From Planctomycetota bacterium (GTDB lineage: Bacteria > Planctomycetota > UBA11346): 6,738 nucleotides of DNA. Both the position numbers and the translations under genes were made by a program. The notes under the pieces were generated by a model. It searched no databases. It saw only the letters and a list, made by a program, of their open reading frames with translations, and had not been told where the DNA came from. The stretch spans positions 1 through 6,738 of the forward strand of contig JAHEDF010000215.1 of NCBI GenBank assembly GCA_024641365.1. Reading direction: 5' to 3'. Below, piece after piece: positions 384 through 6,738 of the stretch. How positions within the stretch are numbered: the stretch's first letter is position 1; every line of letters begins with the position of its first letter.

Positions 384-1043
384 ATGCTTACCAAGATTAT
401 GATTCTGTGGTCACTCGTTTGTTTTATAGCAACAGCAGCAGACCAAACTCCGGCACAGAAGGATGCATCGACCAAAATGACATTTGTTATTACAGCCTAT
501 GGGCCATTTGCTGGGCGTGGAAAAAATGGTTCTTCCACATTACTTAATTCTTTACGAGAAGATCCCGCGTTTGCACAGGTCACATTTCATGTGTTAGATG
601 TTGGATGGAGACAGGTCGATGAATTCATAAAACAATCCGTCACAGATAAATCAATTACAGGCATTATTGGTCTTGGGGAAGGGCATCCTGGTTTAATAGC
701 AATAGAATGTGTTGGTCGTAATAATAAGGGTGGTACGGACGTATTCGGAGTCGAAGAAAAATCAGGACCTATCAATGGTGTTGCATCAACAAATCACAAC
801 AAATCGCGGCTACGCTACAGCATTAATCCTGAATTACCAATTTCGCTCCCCATTGTCATCAGCAACAATGCCGGAGATTATTTATGCAATTACTTACTTT
901 ATAAGTGCAATGACACGGCTGTTAAAATCAGTGGTTTTATTCACCTACCACCACAAGGCGTTACCGCTGATGAAGCCTATTTATCTGTCGTAAGACCATT
1001 AGTTAGGGATATTTTGTTACAAAATATTCCTAAACCAGAATGA
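384..1043 (+). CDS. Exported pyroglutamyl-peptidase I-like cysteine peptidase (family C15)
   Basis: This 219-residue protein resembles pyroglutamyl-peptidase I, which removes N-terminal pyroglutamate from peptides. Visible family landmarks, in order, are the N-terminal ITAYGPFAGRGKNGS segment (36-50, matching the family's GFxPFGG..N.S), a GLGEGHPGLIAIECVGRN segment containing the presumed catalytic Glu108, ISNNAGDYLCNY with the nucleophile Cys168, and SGFIHLPP with His187. The triad is therefore complete. What is odd is the first 19-20 residues (MLTKIMILWSLVCFIATAAD), which look like a Sec signal peptide with cleavage after Ala-Ala; classical members are cytoplasmic. Excluding the leader, the length of about 200 residues is normal for the family. 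The ATG at 384 has AGGGGC five bases upstream. The gene ends 6 bases from the convergent nsrR and has no terminator of its own in the gap. The family call is firm; activity and substrate are inferred. Confidence 0.85.
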   Translation: MLTKIMILWSLVCFIATAADQTPAQKDASTKMTFVITAYGPFAGRGKNGSSTLLNSLREDPAFAQVTFHVLDVGWRQVDEFIKQSVTDKSITGIIGLGEGHPGLIAIECVGRNNKGGTDVFGVEEKSGPINGVASTNHNKSRLRYSINPELPISLPIVISNNAGDYLCNYLLYKCNDTAVKISGFIHLPPQGVTADEAYLSVVRPLVRDILLQNIPKPE

Positions 1044-1049
1044 AGACAT

Positions 1050-1499
1050 TTACTGCGTGACACGTTCATCAAGTAAGATTCGTACCATACGAGTACGATT
1101 TGGTCCTGTAACGATGTCATGCAAAGTATATTTGTCTAAACTAGTAAAAAAGGCCTCTAAGGCCTCAGCAACTATTCCCTTTAATTTACAACTGCCATTA
1201 ATGGGACAGGTATTATTTTTAACATCAAAGCATTCTAATATGTAGGACTGGCTTTCTGTTTCTTTAACAAATGAACCAATTCGAATATCTTTTGGGTGCA
1301 ACGATAAGGTTATTCCACCTCCCTTACCGCGTGTCGTTTCCAAATATCCATTTTTACTGAGGTAATTAACGATTTTAGCCAAATGGTGCCGAGAAATCTG
1401 GTATGCCGTTGCAACCTCATCCAATTGAAATGAATCCCCTTTTATAGCTGCAAACATCATGGTGCGGAGCGCATAATCACTAAATAAACTGATTTTCAC
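1050..1499 (-). CDS. nsrR: NsrR, Rrf2-family nitric-oxide-sensing transcriptional repressor
   Basis: This 149-residue cytoplasmic DNA-binding protein is of full Rrf2 length. It opens MKISLFSDYALRTMMFAA, has a winged-helix region with recognition-helix residues ISRHHLAKIVNYLSKNGYL (35-53) and the basic wing RGKGGG (57-62), and carries three cysteines, Cys90, Cys98 and Cys104, in the NsrR pattern ECFDVKNNTCPINGSCKL. Asp8, the fourth cluster ligand known from Streptomyces NsrR, is present. The tail SLDKYTLHDIV is also NsrR-like. In this family the [Fe-S] cluster is nitrosylated by NO and repression is lifted. Translation starts at a GTG (1499-1497); AAGGAT on the minus strand (1515-1510) lies 10 bases before it. 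The gene is divergent from the haemoglobin lipoprotein, and a consensus-like NsrR operator lies between them. IscR or RsrR are less likely because of the cysteine spacing and the operator. Confidence 0.9.
   Translation of the reverse strand: MKISLFSDYALRTMMFAAIKGDSFQLDEVATAYQISRHHLAKIVNYLSKNGYLETTRGKGGGITLSLHPKDIRIGSFVKETESQSYILECFDVKNNTCPINGSCKLKGIVAEALEAFFTSLDKYTLHDIVTGPNRTRMVRILLDERVTQ
1146..1165 (-). repeat. Terminator-like hairpin inside the nsrR coding region
   Basis: On the minus strand the sequence AGGCCT, TAG, AGGCCT is followed directly by a run of T. It can fold as a 6-bp GC-rich stem with a 3-base loop and a six-T tail, the shape of an intrinsic terminator. It encodes residues around ALEAFF (113-118) of NsrR, roughly 95 bases before the stop codon. 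The stem is short and could be a coincidence of two Glu-Ala codon pairs. Confidence 0.35.
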
Positions 1500-1542
1500 G
1501 GTGTTTTAAATCCTTATTTTCAGCAATCTCTCTTATTTTTAC

Positions 1543-1556
1543 AACAATCAATTGTT
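1543..1556. promoter_or_regulatory. Short inverted repeat overlapping the nsrR -10 region
   Basis: AACAAT, two spacer bases CA, then ATTGTT form a perfect 14-base dyad. It overlaps the candidate TATAAC -10 element and start point of nsrR, so it could be an operator. It does not resemble the NsrR box at 1617-1647, so if it is functional a different regulator would bind. AT-rich dyads of this size also arise by chance. Confidence 0.25.
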
Positions 1557-1582
1557 ATATCAGTAACCACTCCCCGTATCCA
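1554..1582 (-). promoter_or_regulatory. Candidate sigma-70-type promoter for nsrR
   Basis: On the minus strand, TGGATA (1582-1577, four of six matches to TTGACA) is separated by 17 bases from TATAAC (1559-1554, five of six matches to TATAAT). This would start transcription near 1547 and leave a leader of about 48 bases before the GTG. The choice rests on matches by eye only. Confidence 0.4.
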
Positions 1583-1616
1583 CTTGGAACACAATCGCGG
1601 CAAAACTGAGGCTTGC

Positions 1617-1647
1617 TTTAAAGATGTATTCAGAATACATCTTTAAA
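1617..1647. promoter_or_regulatory. NsrR operator: perfect 31-base inverted repeat
   Basis: The left arm TTTAAAGATGTATTC (1617-1631) and the right arm GAATACATCTTTAAA (1633-1647) are exact reverse complements around a single central A (1632). The core AAGATGTATT...AATACATCTT (1621-1643) matches the published NsrR consensus (AAGATGYATTT, one base, AAATRCATCTT) except that the innermost pair is C/G rather than T/A. It lies 56 bases before the haemoglobin start and 117 bases before the divergent nsrR start. A weak -35-like TTGCTT (1613-1618) abuts it, so a bound repressor would cover the promoter region of the haemoglobin gene. No T-run follows either arm, so a terminator is unlikely. Confidence 0.85.
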
Positions 1648-1648
1648 A

Positions 1649-1666
1649 GAAACCGCAAATGGTTTC
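1649..1666 (+). repeat. Leader hairpin upstream of the haemoglobin gene
   Basis: GAAACC and GGTTTC form a 6-bp stem around a 6-base loop (GCAAAT), just after the NsrR box. If transcription starts in or just beyond the box, this would sit in the 5' untranslated leader. It is a modest structure and might be chance. Confidence 0.3.
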
Positions 1667-1685
1667 ACCACAAACATCCTTTCCA

Positions 1686-1702
1686 AGAAGGAAAATCCTT
1701 TT
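1686..1702 (+). promoter_or_regulatory. Ribosome binding site of the haemoglobin gene, inside a small hairpin
   Basis: AAGGA at 1688-1692 is the only good Shine-Dalgarno near the gene and lies 11 bases before ATG 1704. It decides the start in favour of 1704 over the in-frame ATG at 1659, which has no such site and lies only 11 bases past the operator. The site can pair with TCCTT (1696-1700) across an AAA loop; one G-U and one A-U pair extend the stem to seven pairs. The fold would hide the ribosome binding site. Confidence 0.5.
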
Positions 1703-1703
1703 C

Positions 1704-2303
1704 ATGAAAAGCCTACTATCTTGTATCACGACCGCTTTACTATGCGTTGCATTACTTATTAGTAGCGGTTGCACTGCTAGTAATACACGGGCTGAATCTG
1801 CACCTGCAGCAACGAACACGGTTTGTCCAATAAGTGGTAAGGCAGTCGACCCAAAGGTCACGGTGGTCTATGAAGATATCACCTATGCTTTTGCAGATGA
1901 AGCATGCCGCACAAAATTTAATGATGATCGTGCTAAAAGTTTATACCAACGACTCGGCGGGAAAGCTGCCATTAGTGCCGTGGTAGATGCCTTCTATGTA
2001 AAAGTATTAGCAGATGATCGCATCAAACATCATTTTGCCGATATCAATATGGAAAAACAACATCGTCGCCAAAAAGAATTTTTATCAGCAGCCTTTGGCA
2101 GTCCCGTAGCCTGGACTGGTCGTGATATGAGACGTGCACATAGCAATTTAACCCTCACGGAAAAAGATTTTGGCGCAGTCGCTGAAAACTTAGTAGCAAC
2201 ACTAAAAGACTTCAAAATAAAACAGGAATTGATTGATGAGGTAGTTGCCATCGCAGTTAGCGTTAAAGACGATGTGCTCAATAAGCCTAAACCGACAAAA
2301 TAA
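1704..2303 (+). CDS. Lipoprotein with YHS-like module fused to group 1 truncated haemoglobin
   Basis: This 199-residue protein has three parts. Residues 1-23 form a lipoprotein signal (MKSLLSCITTALLCVALLIS then SGC), with lipidation expected at Cys23. After a short Ala/Ser/Thr linker, residues 40-78 resemble a YHS/TRASH-type metal-binding module: CPISGKAVDPKVTVVYEDIT then YAFADEACRTKF, keeping Cys41 and Cys68 but with Ala where the usual F-C cysteine stands. Residues 79-192 are a group 1 truncated haemoglobin beginning SLYQRLGG, with B10 Tyr98, E7 Gln119, E11 Gln123 and proximal F8 His146 (in RRAHSNL). Tyr B10 and Gln E11 are the residues used for O2 binding and NO dioxygenation in mycobacterial HbN. 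An NsrR box lies upstream, so NO detoxification at the cell envelope is the likely role. A strong terminator follows, so it is probably transcribed alone. An in-frame ATG at 1659 would add 15 residues before the signal and is less likely. Haem domain: very sure; YHS: fairly sure. Confidence 0.9.
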   Translation: MKSLLSCITTALLCVALLISSGCTASNTRAESAPAATNTVCPISGKAVDPKVTVVYEDITYAFADEACRTKFNDDRAKSLYQRLGGKAAISAVVDAFYVKVLADDRIKHHFADINMEKQHRRQKEFLSAAFGSPVAWTGRDMRRAHSNLTLTEKDFGAVAENLVATLKDFKIKQELIDEVVAIAVSVKDDVLNKPKPTK

Positions 2304-2350
2304 GACGTCTTCGTTAGTTTTCTAAGAAAATACAAAATCGTATTTATTCA

Positions 2351-2384
2351 CGGTTGGCGATATTTGATCGCCAACCGTTTATTC
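2351..2384 (+). terminator. Intrinsic terminator after the haemoglobin lipoprotein gene
   Basis: CGGTTGGCGAT (2351-2361) and ATCGCCAACCG (2367-2377) form a perfect 11-bp GC-rich stem with a 5-base loop, followed by TTTATTCT. It begins 47 bases after the haemoglobin stop codon and should end that transcript before the DUF6807 gene. Confidence 0.85.
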
Positions 2385-2559
2385 TATGGCTATTACCCAC
2401 GCCATGAGTAAAATCATATATGCAATATGTAGGCTCAAAAAACTTGGTAGTTTTGCTCAATGAGTGCTGATAATTTCCTTTTTCATGGCATCTTATTTAG
2501 AAAGACTTCCCCATAGCCCCATAGCCTTCAACGTATAGGTAGAGTCGACGTAGCATTAA

Positions 2560-2573
2560 AGTAGTACACTACT
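2560..2573. promoter_or_regulatory. 14-base dyad upstream of the DUF6807 gene, possible operator
   Basis: AGTAGT, spacer AC, ACTACT form a perfect inverted repeat 27 bases before the start codon, where a repressor could block transcription. It contains a weak -10-like TACACT. No matching -35 or known regulator consensus was recognised. Confidence 0.3.
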
Positions 2574-2600
2574 GACATAAATTCTTAGAAAGGCGTTCCT

Positions 2601-3521
2601 ATGCGCATTTTATCAACAGGTTTGGCTATTTTATTCGCAAGCTGCTCATCAATATCCTTGTATGCAGCAGATGCGGTAGGCACCGTTGTCGATACCCCTG
2701 GACAACATGCTGACGTCGTTGTCGCGGGTAAACCTTTGGTTCGATATATGTATAATTTCGATGAGGCGAATAAATTTGATACAGCTAAAGTCTACCTCCA
2801 TGTCATGGCACCTGATGGTGAGTCTACGCTGACCAAAGGTACAGGCGATAAATTCCCCCATCACCGTGGCATCTTTATTGGCTGGAATAAAATATCACAT
2901 GGCGGAAAAAGTTACGATATCTGGCATGTAAAAAATACTGATCAAAAACACGTGAGTTTTTCCTCCGCCGCTCCTGATGACAAAACAACACCCATTACTG
3001 CGAATATTGCTTGGCGCGATAGTGAAGGTAAAGTACTCATTAATGAATCGCGTAGTTATATTGTACGACACGATGATCCAGCTGCCTATGCATTAATTGA
3101 TGTTGTTACAACTCTCACACCAGTTGGTAGTGATATCGTATTAAATGGTGATCCAGAACATGCAGGAATTCAATTTCGTGCCCATGAAGAAACGGTTGCT
3201 AATAAATCAGCAAAATACACGTTTCCTGAAACCCTGGCTGATGAGAAAGCTGTTAAAGCTGCTCAAGATTTACCCTGGATCGCTTTGAACTATCAAAACA
3301 AAGGTAACTCCTGGTCAGTTCAATTTATGAATCACCCAGATAACCCCAAAAACACCCGCCATTCAGCGTATCGTGATTACGGTCGTTTTGGTCACTTTCC
3401 GGTTGTCAAAATAGCAGACGGCTCGAGCGCAACGTTGCGCTACCGAGTCCGAATCACTGCCGGTGATATGCCTGATTTAGAAACTTTAAATAAAGCACAC
3501 GCGACTTTTATCGGTAAATAA
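2601..3521 (+). CDS. Secreted DUF6807 ('PmoA family') protein
   Basis: This 306-residue protein begins with a Sec signal peptide (MRILSTGLAILFASCSSISL then YAADA, cleavage near residue 22-25), so it works outside the cytoplasm. The body matches the DUF6807 family, often labelled 'PmoA family' in databases. Conserved-looking clusters are FPHHRGIFIGWNKI (85-98), YDIWHV (105-110), GDPEHAGIQFRAHE (183-196), MNHPDNP (243-249) and GRFGHFP (261-267). These are rich in His and Asp and could form an active or metal site, but no activity is established that I know of. The database name is misleading: nothing resembles the membrane subunit of methane monooxygenase. The family is common in Planctomycetota and Verrucomicrobiota, commonly beside sugar-handling genes, so a carbohydrate role is only a guess. 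ATG 2601 has AAAGG seven bases upstream. The gene is bounded by terminators on both sides, so it is probably transcribed alone. Confidence 0.85.
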   Translation: MRILSTGLAILFASCSSISLYAADAVGTVVDTPGQHADVVVAGKPLVRYMYNFDEANKFDTAKVYLHVMAPDGESTLTKGTGDKFPHHRGIFIGWNKISHGGKSYDIWHVKNTDQKHVSFSSAAPDDKTTPITANIAWRDSEGKVLINESRSYIVRHDDPAAYALIDVVTTLTPVGSDIVLNGDPEHAGIQFRAHEETVANKSAKYTFPETLADEKAVKAAQDLPWIALNYQNKGNSWSVQFMNHPDNPKNTRHSAYRDYGRFGHFPVVKIADGSSATLRYRVRITAGDMPDLETLNKAHATFIGK

Positions 3522-3547
3522 TAGTATTGATTATGTGCAAAGATTAG

Positions 3548-3582
3548 CCGTTAGCAGTATATGCTGCTAACGGTTATTTTTT
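3548..3582 (+). terminator. Intrinsic terminator after the DUF6807 gene
   Basis: CCGTTAGCAG (3548-3557) pairs perfectly with CTGCTAACGG (3564-3573) around a 6-base loop and is followed by TTATTTTTT. It lies in the 69-base gap between the convergent DUF6807 and DUF1501 genes. The T-run favours the plus strand; the minus-strand side lacks a clear T tract, although the stem could still slow the opposing transcript. Confidence 0.85.
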
Positions 3583-3590
3583 GTACTGTT

Positions 3591-5015
3591 TTAGGCAAGA
3601 ATCTTTTTAATCACGTGTCCATGCACATCCGTTAAACGGAATCGACGCCCCTGAAATTTGTAGGTCAAACGTTCGTGATCTATGCCTAGTAAATGCAAAA
3701 TGGTCGCATGGAAATCATGAATGTGTATTTTATCTTCTGAGACAATGTTATACGAAAAGTCATCAGTCTCGCCAAAAATCGTTCCCCCTTTAATACCACC
3801 GCCAGCAAACCACATCGGGAAGCAGCGCGGATGGTGATCGCGTCCATAATTGTTACGTTCTATTTTTCCTTGTGAGTAGGCAGTACGGCCAAATTCACCG
3901 CCCCAAATGACTAAGGTTTCATCAAGCATGCCACGTTGTTTCAAATCTTGAATTAATGCCGCTGCACCCTGATCGGTTTCCTCACATTGTTTTTTAACGC
4001 CCCCAGGGCAACCACCATGTTGATCCCACCCTTGATGATAAAGTTGAATGCAACGCACACCGCGTTCAGCTAAGCGACGTGCCATTAGGCAATTATTAGC
4101 AAACGTCCCAGGTTTTTTCACATCCGGTCCATATAATGCTAGCGTATCTCCACTCTCTTTTGATATATCGACAGCTTCTGGAATGGAACTCTGCATACGA
4201 TAGGCCATTTCATATTGTGCCAATCGTGAATCTATGCCTGGGTCAGGTACACGTAATTTTTGTACTTTTTCTAATTCATGCATGCGATTTAGCACATTAC
4301 GTCGCGCTTCTGTAGAAATTCCACCTGGGTTATTTAAAAACAGTACGGGATCATTTTCAGGGCGAAACATGACGCCTTGGTATTCAGAGGGCAAAAATCC
4401 ATTACCCCATAAACTGGCAAATAGGGGCTGTCCCCCCTTACCCTTTGTACGCATGACGACAAAGGGCGGTAAATTCACGTTATCGCTACCGAGTCCATAT
4501 TCCAACCATGCACCGATTGATGGACGTCCAGGAAATTGTGATCCAGATTGCATAAATGTATTTGCTGGACCATGATTAATTGCTTCCGTATACATGGTTT
4601 TAACCAAGCAAATATCATCAACAATTTTGGCCGTGTGTGGCAATAATTCACTTACTTCCATACCGCATTGGCCATGTTTTTTAAATTTATACGGGTTTGC
4701 AGCTACAGGGAGCGATGACTGATTTCCGGACATGCCAGTTAATCGCTGACCACCGATAATTTCTTTCGGCAATTCTTGACCATGCATTTTTTCCATTACT
4801 GGTTTATAATCGAATGTTTCAAACTGCGACGGCCCTCCAGCCATATATAAATAAATTATCCGCTTTGCTTTAGCTGGGTGATGTGTTCCGCCTAGAACAC
4901 CTGGCCTTTTGCCTGAAGTATCTTCAATTGCTGCTAATGACGGAAAAAATCCTCCGCCGATGGTCAATCCACCACTTATTCCAGCGCCTAACTTTAAAAA
5001 ATGTCTTCTATCCAT
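3591..5015 (-). CDS. Tat-exported DUF1501 protein (alkaline-phosphatase/sulfatase-like fold)
   Basis: This 474-residue protein has the usual length for the family. It starts MDRRHFLKLGAGISGG, a twin-arginine signal, and should be exported folded. Family landmarks are IIYLYMAGGPSQFETFD (53-69), NHGPANTFMQSGSQFPGRPS (147-166), YHQGWDQHGG (326-335), DETLVIWGGEFGR (365-377), GRDHHP (391-396), WFAGGGIKGGTIFGETDDF (402-420) and HIHDFHATILHLLGIDHERL (431-450). DUF1501 proteins are distantly related to sulfatases and alkaline phosphatases, and the conserved Asp/His residues here would suit a metal site, but no substrate is known. It is the second gene of an operon with the LamG-DUF1553 gene, 11 bases downstream; its Shine-Dalgarno AAAGGGC (5028-5022) overlaps the upstream TAA. 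The partnership with DUF1553 proteins is a standard arrangement in Planctomycetota and relatives. Confidence 0.92.
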   Translation of the reverse strand: MDRRHFLKLGAGISGGLTIGGGFFPSLAAIEDTSGKRPGVLGGTHHPAKAKRIIYLYMAGGPSQFETFDYKPVMEKMHGQELPKEIIGGQRLTGMSGNQSSLPVAANPYKFKKHGQCGMEVSELLPHTAKIVDDICLVKTMYTEAINHGPANTFMQSGSQFPGRPSIGAWLEYGLGSDNVNLPPFVVMRTKGKGGQPLFASLWGNGFLPSEYQGVMFRPENDPVLFLNNPGGISTEARRNVLNRMHELEKVQKLRVPDPGIDSRLAQYEMAYRMQSSIPEAVDISKESGDTLALYGPDVKKPGTFANNCLMARRLAERGVRCIQLYHQGWDQHGGCPGGVKKQCEETDQGAAALIQDLKQRGMLDETLVIWGGEFGRTAYSQGKIERNNYGRDHHPRCFPMWFAGGGIKGGTIFGETDDFSYNIVSEDKIHIHDFHATILHLLGIDHERLTYKFQGRRFRLTDVHGHVIKKILA

Positions 5016-5021
5016 GTTTAT

Positions 5022-5029
5022 GCCCTTTA
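5022..5029 (-). promoter_or_regulatory. DUF1501 ribosome binding site overlapping the upstream stop codon
   Basis: On the minus strand the upstream gene's TAA (5029-5027) shares two bases with AAAGGGC (5028-5022), six bases before ATG 5015. Such a layout favours translational coupling of the two genes and confirms both gene ends. Confidence 0.7.
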
Positions 5030-6738
5030 TCGCACCATGTAAAATGAATCAAGATTCATAACTGCGCTTGCTACAGATGCCCACGCTGCCAATTCATGAG
5101 GCGGTACATTTTTCTCAGGTTTTCCTCCGCCGCCGATCGCTAGGTAACTTTTAGTGACATCTGGCACCTTACTAAAATAATCGAGTTGTTCTTTTACCAA
5201 GGTTAAGAGAATTTTCTGTTCATCAGCTGTAACTTGACGACTCGTCAGGCGCAGAAAAATATCGCCAATAATATCTTCAGATTTTTTAAATTTTGCTAAT
5301 GCTGCCACAGCAATCAACCGGGCATTTTTAACATATAATGGACTATTCAGTAACACCAATGGTTGTAACGGAGTTGAGGTCGCCTCTCGCTTAACCGTAC
5401 AGACATGGCGTGGTGGCGTTCCAAAAATTACCAACTCTGGAGGTGGGTCATTGCGCCTTAAATTCACATATAAACTTCGTCTGTTTGATTCAATAGATGT
5501 ACTATTCCCACAAATGGTCAGGTTGAGCCAGCCGCCTGCAATAATTGCATTATCACGTAACATTTCAGCGCTCATGTAATAAGATGGTCCGCGTGCCAAT
5601 ATTTTATTCTCAGGGTCTGTATCCAATAATTTATTAGAGCCACTCGAATCTTGACGGAAAGTTGCCGAGGTCACTATGTATTTAAATATCTCAGCAACAT
5701 CCCACCCGGAATCGATGAAACGACGTGATAAATAATTGAGTAAATCTGGGTACGTCGGCATAGCTCCCTGAAATCCGAAATCATTCGTGGTCAATACAAT
5801 ACCGCTGCCAAAAATAAGTTGCCAATAACGATTTACAGTTACTCGCGCTGTTAAAGGATGATCGGGATGTGTCAGCCATTTGGAAAGACCAAGCCGATCA
5901 CGAGTATATTCACTGCCAAATGGAAAAATTCTCTCTGGTGGTCCTGGTTCAACTTCTTGGTTCAAATCCGGGTCACTATAAAGACCACGTTTTAACACAT
6001 ACGTTTTACGTCGTTCTGGTAATTCAGCCATAACCATCATGCGAGCCATACCATCTATATATTTATTGGTGACGCGTCGTGCCTCTGCGAGTTGATTTAC
6101 GGCTTCTGCCACTGCTGCAGACTGCGTGGCTTGATAGTACGACAATAATTCCGCATCACTTTTAGGTTTAGCCTTTTTGTCATGCAAAGATCGAACTTCT
6201 AATGCAGTCAACTCACGGTCAAATATAGCTACGTCATCAATTTTTGAGTTTTTAAATCCATTATCACGAAAACGAGCAGCCAACTCTATAGAACGTCCTT
6301 TAGAGTAATGAATTTCTTTATTTAGATTGTCTCGAATAATATCAACCGGCACTAGTTCGCCATTAATATGTAATTTGATTCCCGCTGCTCGACCAGAACC
6401 ATCATAGGTCATAGTCAAACGAGTCCATGTGTTAATTGGAATATCTTGTTTTGTTCGAACGCGGATCTCATTTCCGGGTGAAAAATGGATCAACGCAAAG
6501 TCTAATTTTCCTTCATGTATCAACAATTCATAACCGCGACTTCCCGCATCAGTCCACGCTTGAGAACGATGCAGAATAACCGCTCGCTTATGAGCGACGG
6601 GCATTTCTATGGCAACACTGATAGAAAATGGTGCGTGACGGGCAAAAGGACCAATTCCACCAATTTTTAATTCAGTATCACCATCAAATGCTGCTGCCTT
6701 ACCCGATATACCATCAACGAGCGTATTTGATCCCAATG
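5027..6738 (-). CDS. LamG/concanavalin-like plus DUF1553 (PSD1) protein, N-terminus missing
   Basis: About 570 C-terminal residues are in the window; the frame continues past 6738, so the apparent TTG start at 6736 is not real. Numbering is from that codon. Residues 1 to about 185 form a LamG/concanavalin-A-like jelly roll (GKAAAFDGDTELKIG; WTRLTMTYDGSG; KIDDVAIFDRELTALEV), a fold often used for glycan binding. A helical linker (about 190-245) follows. Residues about 250-569 are DUF1553/PSD1, with RLGLSKWLTHPDHPLTARVT (281-300), NRYWQLIFGSG, SGWDVAEIFKYIVTSATFRQ, SAEMLRDNAII, CTVKREATSTPLQPLVLLNS and the closing VMNLDSFYMVR. In this family a cytochrome-c-like PSCyt1 and DUF1549 (PSCyt2) normally precede LamG and should lie just outside the window. 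An exported redox or glycan-related function is commonly presumed, not shown. The stretch after LRDNAII is shortened and lacks the usual GGPSV-type motif. Confidence 0.9.
   Translation of the reverse strand, partial: LGSNTLVDGISGKAAAFDGDTELKIGGIGPFARHAPFSISVAIEMPVAHKRAVILHRSQAWTDAGSRGYELLIHEGKLDFALIHFSPGNEIRVRTKQDIPINTWTRLTMTYDGSGRAAGIKLHINGELVPVDIIRDNLNKEIHYSKGRSIELAARFRDNGFKNSKIDDVAIFDRELTALEVRSLHDKKAKPKSDAELLSYYQATQSAAVAEAVNQLAEARRVTNKYIDGMARMMVMAELPERRKTYVLKRGLYSDPDLNQEVEPGPPERIFPFGSEYTRDRLGLSKWLTHPDHPLTARVTVNRYWQLIFGSGIVLTTNDFGFQGAMPTYPDLLNYLSRRFIDSGWDVAEIFKYIVTSATFRQDSSGSNKLLDTDPENKILARGPSYYMSAEMLRDNAIIAGGWLNLTICGNSTSIESNRRSLYVNLRRNDPPPELVIFGTPPRHVCTVKREATSTPLQPLVLLNSPLYVKNARLIAVAALAKFKKSEDIIGDIFLRLTSRQVTADEQKILLTLVKEQLDYFSKVPDVTKSYLAIGGGGKPEKNVPPHELAAWASVASAVMNLDSFYMVR

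Follow-up and report, generated by a model that had tools for sequence, protein, structure and literature searches.

The 6,738-nucleotide stretch of planctomycete DNA analysed here (the window) probably encodes a small NO circuit comprising an NsrR-type repressor, its operator, and an exported globin that would remove NO. In the proposed mechanism, the repressor carries an Fe-S cluster and binds a palindrome at 1617-1647, where it would repress the divergent globin gene and perhaps its own gene too. NO would damage the cluster, repression would be lifted, and the globin would be made and exported, lipid-anchored in the lineage of the window. Its haem (Tyr B10, Gln E7, Gln E11, and His F8) may then convert NO and O2 to nitrate, or hold NO, within the envelope. 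NO would thereby be met in the envelope before reaching the cytoplasm. Re-reduction of the haem may draw on an envelope electron pool, perhaps c-type cytochromes. Full counting of the exceptions and of the patchy occurrence described below slightly lowers our confidence in this reading.

The gene at 1050-1499 (reverse strand, 149 aa, GTG start) likely encodes an NsrR-type repressor, with NO sensing predicted. Its product matches the Rrf2 winged-helix family PF02082 (E 8e-29; 100.9 bits against a cut-off of 30), and its best solved relative is an NsrR (5n07, E 2.9e-21). Cys90, Cys98, Cys104, and Asp8 are the same in all 25 aligned sequences, a chosen set that includes the window regulator, leaves out L068 and L070, and does not hold every regulator found. 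These residues are candidate Fe-S ligands, with Asp8 as the putative acidic fourth ligand by analogy with Streptomyces NsrR. NCBIfam scores do not decide the name of the regulator. The window regulator scores 105.1 bits with the NsrR equivalog model (cut-off 182) and 105.9 bits with the RirA model (cut-off 193), a tie far under both cut-offs. Thus, the gene is filed as NsrR-type and not as a certified NsrR.

The palindrome at 1617-1647 is a probable NsrR operator. It reads TTTAAAGATGTATTC-A-GAATACATCTTTAAA, a perfect 31-bp palindrome of 15 pairs around one central base. This is the longest perfect palindrome in the window, the next longest having 9 pairs. Its core (1621-1643) has two mismatches to the NsrR consensus AAGATGYATTTNAAATRCATCTT, and no match arose in 200 shuffles of the window. 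The consensus, gATGyAT-N5-ATrCATc, is that of Rodionov 2005 (PMC1274295). An operator of this form near NO-related genes was one test of NsrR membership, and such an operator was found.

The gap between the regulator and the divergent globin gene (1500-1703) spans 204 bases. We found no further convincing gene and no promoter-like site within it. The sole other ORF of at least 60 aa reaching the gap (1643-1861, reverse strand) runs antisense through the globin gene. The initial annotation had described nsrR, a near-consensus operator, and a divergent globin with nothing else between them; the PF02082 and 5n07 matches, the palindrome, and the empty gap bear this out.

The gene at 1704-2303 (forward strand, 199 aa) encodes a YHS-like/group 1 truncated haemoglobin with a predicted export signal (PF01152, E 1.9e-16). 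We prefer the start at ATG 1704 because AAGAAGGA, a likely ribosome-binding site read from the sequence, lies at 1685-1692 on the same strand and because homologues begin there. An earlier ATG at 1659 was ruled out on these two grounds. The signal sequence (1704-1772, forward strand) ends in ISSG-C23, which fits what we take to be the lipobox pattern, and by this pattern match the protein passes the lipoprotein test. We propose that the window globin is lipid-anchored in its own lineage.

The globin gene is followed by a stem-loop of 12 pairs at 2350-2378 (forward strand; z -3.95 for the segment 2304-2400). The T tail behind this stem is modest; a role as the intrinsic terminator of the globin gene is thus likely and not more. 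Of the strong terminator first described, the stem stands and the strength is tempered by the tail. A plasmid search with the globin returned 45 records, none with a single place covering 80% of the query, and therefore no full-length globin relative there.

The globin domain (1938-2285, forward strand) has a 2-on-2 fold, and its assignment to group 1 is backed by both sequence and predicted model. Its best PDB match is 2ksc, a group 1 truncated haemoglobin (E 2.9e-28). The AF2 model of the whole product (mean pLDDT 81.2) contains the signal, the YHS-like segment, and the globin only, in agreement with the earlier claim that the fusion has no reductase domain. At E 1e-6 or better, we found 765 globin homologues. 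The residues that we take to be B10 (Tyr98), E7 (Gln119), E11 (Gln123), and F8 (His146) are Tyr, Gln, Gln, and His in all of the best 120 of these. At position E10, where Synechocystis GlbN has its His ligand, the window globin carries Arg, and the same best 120 of 765 carry Lys (85), Arg (33), or Gln (2). In a tree of 80 globins, from which L030 was left out as too short, the window globin clusters with three loci from Planctomycetota (support 100/99). Within this set, L002 has the highest identity to it (71%).

A degenerate YHS-like segment lies between the signal and the globin (about 1815-1937, forward strand) and was overlooked in the initial annotation. Pfam YHS matches in relatives and the model delimit it as Cys41-Pro, a beta-hairpin, a helix, and Cys68, with the motif N-x-x-CPISGK...VYE...YAFA. 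Pfam YHS (PF04945) matches the segment in 16 of 20 aligned members; the window protein is unmatched. Among 11 globins inspected singly, nine match YHS at no more than 26.6 bits against a gathering score of 30.3, and L056 and L015 are unmatched, so that neither these globins nor the window protein reach that score. Modelled alone, the segment forms a hairpin and a helix (mean pLDDT 86.3). Fold look-alikes of the 53-residue segment are weak and a hint only; they include ribosomal large-subunit chains (which we take to be L24e), toluene monooxygenase hydroxylase, and MYND fingers, families that together form one broad group. Searched as a profile against solved structures, the segment had no match up to E 1.

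Conservation of the segment is uneven. Cys41 is present in 120 and Cys68 in 89 of the best 120 of 765 homologues; classical metal binding by the segment is therefore doubtful in many of them. A motif search is passed by 58 of 81 loci (the window and 80 relatives). By eye, some of the other 23 are variants or wrongly started, and L079 and L080 are without the segment. Seven globins of one clade (L056, L057, L058, L061, L062, L068, and L070) keep the hairpin part alone, lack the Cys-Pro part, and carry clear lipoprotein signals.

Judged by the predicted signals, export of the globin is the rule and a lipid anchor the minority state. Ahead of the motif, 119 of the best 120 of 765 homologues carry a hydrophobic stretch, and 78 of the 81 loci have one within the first 40 residues. 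Those under the hydrophobicity threshold (L035, L042, L079, and protein P0034) appear, by eye, to have wrong or missing starts. A lipobox occurs at 8 of 81 loci, namely the window and the seven L056-clade loci, several of which are labelled Opitutae, and all eight have a divergent regulator. Cys occupies the lipobox column in 3 of the best 120 of 765 homologues. The globin had been put forward as lipid-anchored and working outside the cytoplasm; across relatives the export signal supports the second part, while the lipobox count confines the first to a few loci.

The regulator, box, and globin co-occur well beyond the window. Our locus set comprised the best 80 of 97 relatives from a species-genome scan, 81 with the window; some loci are cut short upstream, and boxes were called at p 0.01 or less with 200 shuffles each. 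A divergent Rrf2 gene lies within 500 bases of the globin in 26 of the 80 relatives (27 of 81 with the window), another eight have one elsewhere on the locus, and 46 have none. A significant box lies upstream of the globin in 24 of the 26 divergent relatives (25 of 27 with the window), in six of the eight with Rrf2 elsewhere, and in 18 of the 46 without. The nsrR-box-globin order sought in related genomes is thus found there.

Genome-wide scans also place the box at the globin. We scanned 11 genomes (3.6-7.9 Mb) at up to two mismatches, and in 10 the best NsrR-like site of the genome lies in the globin-regulator gap. Nine of these 10 have no other site at that level, and G002 has no site at all; a reversed-pattern control gave 0 sites in all 11 genomes. 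Across 30 distinct sites, symmetric departures from the consensus exceed expectation, with 19 identical symmetric changes, a number reached by 16 of 5000 shuffles. Taken by themselves, the 24 divergent sites give a modest effect (180 of 5000), and the 13 sites without Rrf2 on the locus have no symmetry excess (1574 of 5000).

Box presence follows the regulator when whole genomes are considered. With the window regulator as query, 16 of 18 genomes match at E 1e-10; with the regulator alignment, 28 of another 44 do so at 1e-30. We pooled these 62 genomes, one locus each, and called a match strong at 52% identity or more among the first 18 or at E 1e-60 or better among the other 44. The box is significant in 25 of 32 strong-NsrR genomes, 6 of 12 weak ones, and 3 of 18 without a regulator match (strong vs. 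none, Fisher p 5.9e-5). This argues for the NsrR-type control of the globin that had been proposed from the window. In the class of G012 (286 genomes, G012 included), the globin occurs in seven genomes, the regulator in 19, and both in six (p 2.5e-7); the globin occurs without the regulator in G166, and a strong regulator without the globin in G157. Among the 23 genomes of the class of G001, three have the globin and four the regulator at 1e-30, strong in the globin-bearing G001 and G003 and weaker in G022 and G026, which are without the globin. With 3 of 23 and 7 of 286 genomes, the globin is patchily distributed.

On these sequence comparisons, regulator-globin coupling is common but not obligatory. 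L002 (a planctomycete) and L024 (Brevifollis) keep the globin with neither box nor regulator in the genome, and 15 of the 18 genomes without a regulator match show no significant box. Relatives of this kind had been named beforehand as evidence against the circuit, and that evidence has in part materialised. These two exceptions, the patchy globin, and the 46 of 81 loci without Rrf2 on the locus all count against the circuit. Exceptions run both ways: 7 of 32 strong-NsrR genomes are without a significant box, and 3 of 18 regulator-less genomes have one. Gaps in MAGs could explain some of them. The counts are not independent, as the loci are partly near kin and the genomes partly incomplete MAGs.

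Flavohaemoglobin is the best studied bacterial NO dioxygenase; it is mainly cytoplasmic and has its own flavin reductase. The Hmp model is over cut-off in none of 18 related genomes, compared with 2 of 14 control genomes. Hmp-model matches in the 18 cover either the globin part or the reductase part, never both. The NsrR output of these relatives is therefore not a typical Hmp, which sustains the earlier suggestion of an output other than flavohaemoglobin, extended from the relatives to the window organism. PF00042 occurs in 6 of the 18 genomes; five of the open frames are 140-163 residues long and the sixth 331. As possible donors, we considered the six strongest reductase-only matches (G003, G004, G006, G007, G013, and G015). 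Those in G004, G006, and G007 are on other contigs than the globin and, by eye, near cytochrome-like ORFs; checks of all six found no link to the globin. Proteins of about 430-470 residues, encoded close to cytochrome-like ORFs in three genomes (L110, L111, and L112), combine an Hmp-like reductase part with what looks by eye like an N-terminal membrane segment.

Gene neighbours in relatives fit an exported globin. At 15 of 80 loci, all in records with the label of Verrucomicrobiota or of its members, the opposite strand encodes an upstream NnrS with at least 72% identity. A NirK-cytochrome c fusion and an FGE-sulfatase/SCO1 protein occur at four of 80 (L014, L027, L028, and L034); the query loci L004 and L014 are included in these counts. 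The NirK model TIGR02376 is over cut-off in 6 of 18 genomes. NnrS and NirK are NO-making or NO-related, which is consistent with an exported globin. At L014, the NirK-cytochrome c fusion (2532-5381, reverse strand) lies beside the FGE-sulfatase/SCO1 protein, with NnrS beyond, and is divergent from the globin. L074 has a weak NnrS match. Among its own genes, the window has no NnrS, NirK fusion, or FGE-sulfatase/SCO1 protein.

Three other readings were weighed. Instead of turning over NO as a dioxygenase, the globin might serve in the envelope as a binder, sensor, or peroxidase whose target is NO, O2, or peroxide, acting stoichiometrically or on other ligands. The model of signal, YHS-like segment, and globin, with no reductase domain, would suit such a role, as would the window, where no donor or reductase gene lies beside the globin. 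However, Tyr B10, Gln E7, and Gln E11 are invariant in the best 120 of 765 homologues, and NO dioxygenase activity is reported for trHbN, a truncated globin of mycobacteria (PMC6950321). We find this reading doubtful, though it has a real share of the probability. The regulator, in turn, might be a RirA- or IscR-type Rrf2 protein sensing iron or Fe-S, with the globin answering iron or oxygen and not NO. The NsrR and RirA models tie for the window, all 25 aligned regulators match both, and the cysteine spacing of x7 and x5 equals what we take to be the RirA spacing. Yet 5n07, the best solved relative, is an NsrR, the neighbours of related globins include NnrS and NirK, and the operator fits the NsrR consensus (PMC1274295), so we regard an iron-sensing regulator as unlikely.

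It seems more improbable still that the palindrome autoregulates nsrR only and that the globin is controlled otherwise. The box does lie in a shared divergent gap in which no promoter was located. But significant boxes also stand before globins that have no adjacent divergent regulator: at such loci, one is present in 12 of 17 genomes with a strong NsrR elsewhere, compared with 3 of 18 genomes with none (p 0.002). For NsrR-type control of an NO-removing globin, we offer one extension tentatively and at somewhat less than even confidence. In some Planctomycetota and Verrucomicrobiota, the exported YHS-like/globin fusion may be a periplasmic NO dioxygenase that uses c-type cytochromes and not NAD(P)H as donor and serves the NO of periplasmic NirK. 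It would also be the chief or only target of the NsrR-type repressor.

The circuit resembles NsrR-hmp circuits, in which an Rrf2 repressor is often beside an NO-removing globin target and the operator consensus is the same (PMC1274295). The window target differs in being a truncated globin that is predicted to be exported and has no reductase domain. The same survey reports Hmp as the most conserved NsrR regulon member and nnrS as another, and it predicts the Legionella glbN-lpg2536 operon as a sole NsrR target. Thus, the link of NsrR to a truncated-type globin is already known, and the exported YHS-like version, as predicted here, is the new part. In Legionella, the partner of glbN is a gene for a hypothetical ferredoxin reductase (PMC1274295), whereas the window globin has no adjoining reductase gene. 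The window globin also carries a predicted export signal followed by a YHS-like segment. Other group 1 truncated haemoglobins (mycobacterial HbN, Chlamydomonas, and Synechocystis) share its fold and haem-pocket residues, while the export signal, YHS-like segment, and E10 Arg are those of the window. Bradyrhizobium Bjgb-Flp likewise involves a single-domain globin, NO protection, and a link to nitrogen-oxide metabolism; in contrast, its detoxification is cytoplasmic, with a flavoprotein donor and NasS-NasT control (PMC4724949).

Related reports touch on parts of this arrangement. PMC10866078 reports that two other phyla have both nsrR and glbN, and that nsrR was absent from every additional phylum of its mat community. 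Some globins are known to associate with membranes (PMC3820574), and some Hmp is reported in the periplasm, with the haem holoenzyme seemingly cytoplasmic (PMC6950321). Within the open-licence literature, we found nothing on truncated hemoglobin, lipoprotein, and NsrR together, nor on the YHS domain with truncated hemoglobin or with globin. On sequence grounds, we consider the recurrent NsrR-type circuit with an unusual output to be real. If the proposed circuit is right, NO would be met in the envelope with an electron source other than that of flavohaemoglobin. The NsrR-linked exported globin is then a candidate NO-defence route in two environmental phyla, with a possible role for the YHS-like segment.

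Further features were noted in G001 and in the window. G001 has an extra NsrR-like site (L103, 3151-3173; G001:C20), which belongs to a longer dyad on the 5' side of a single-domain globin. A long ORF overlaps this site, and another Rrf2 gene lies downstream of the single-domain globin; the site perhaps marks a second NO circuit. In the window, the gene at 384-1043 (forward strand) is pyroglutamyl-peptidase-like with an N-terminal hydrophobic stretch and scores under curated NCBIfam cut-offs. The enzyme it resembles is normally cytoplasmic, and its product may be a relative that is exported. The remaining genes encode a DUF6807 protein (2601-3521, forward strand), a DUF1501 protein (3591-5015, reverse strand), and a laminin-G/PSD1 protein (5027-6736, reverse strand), a set typical of Planctomycetota.
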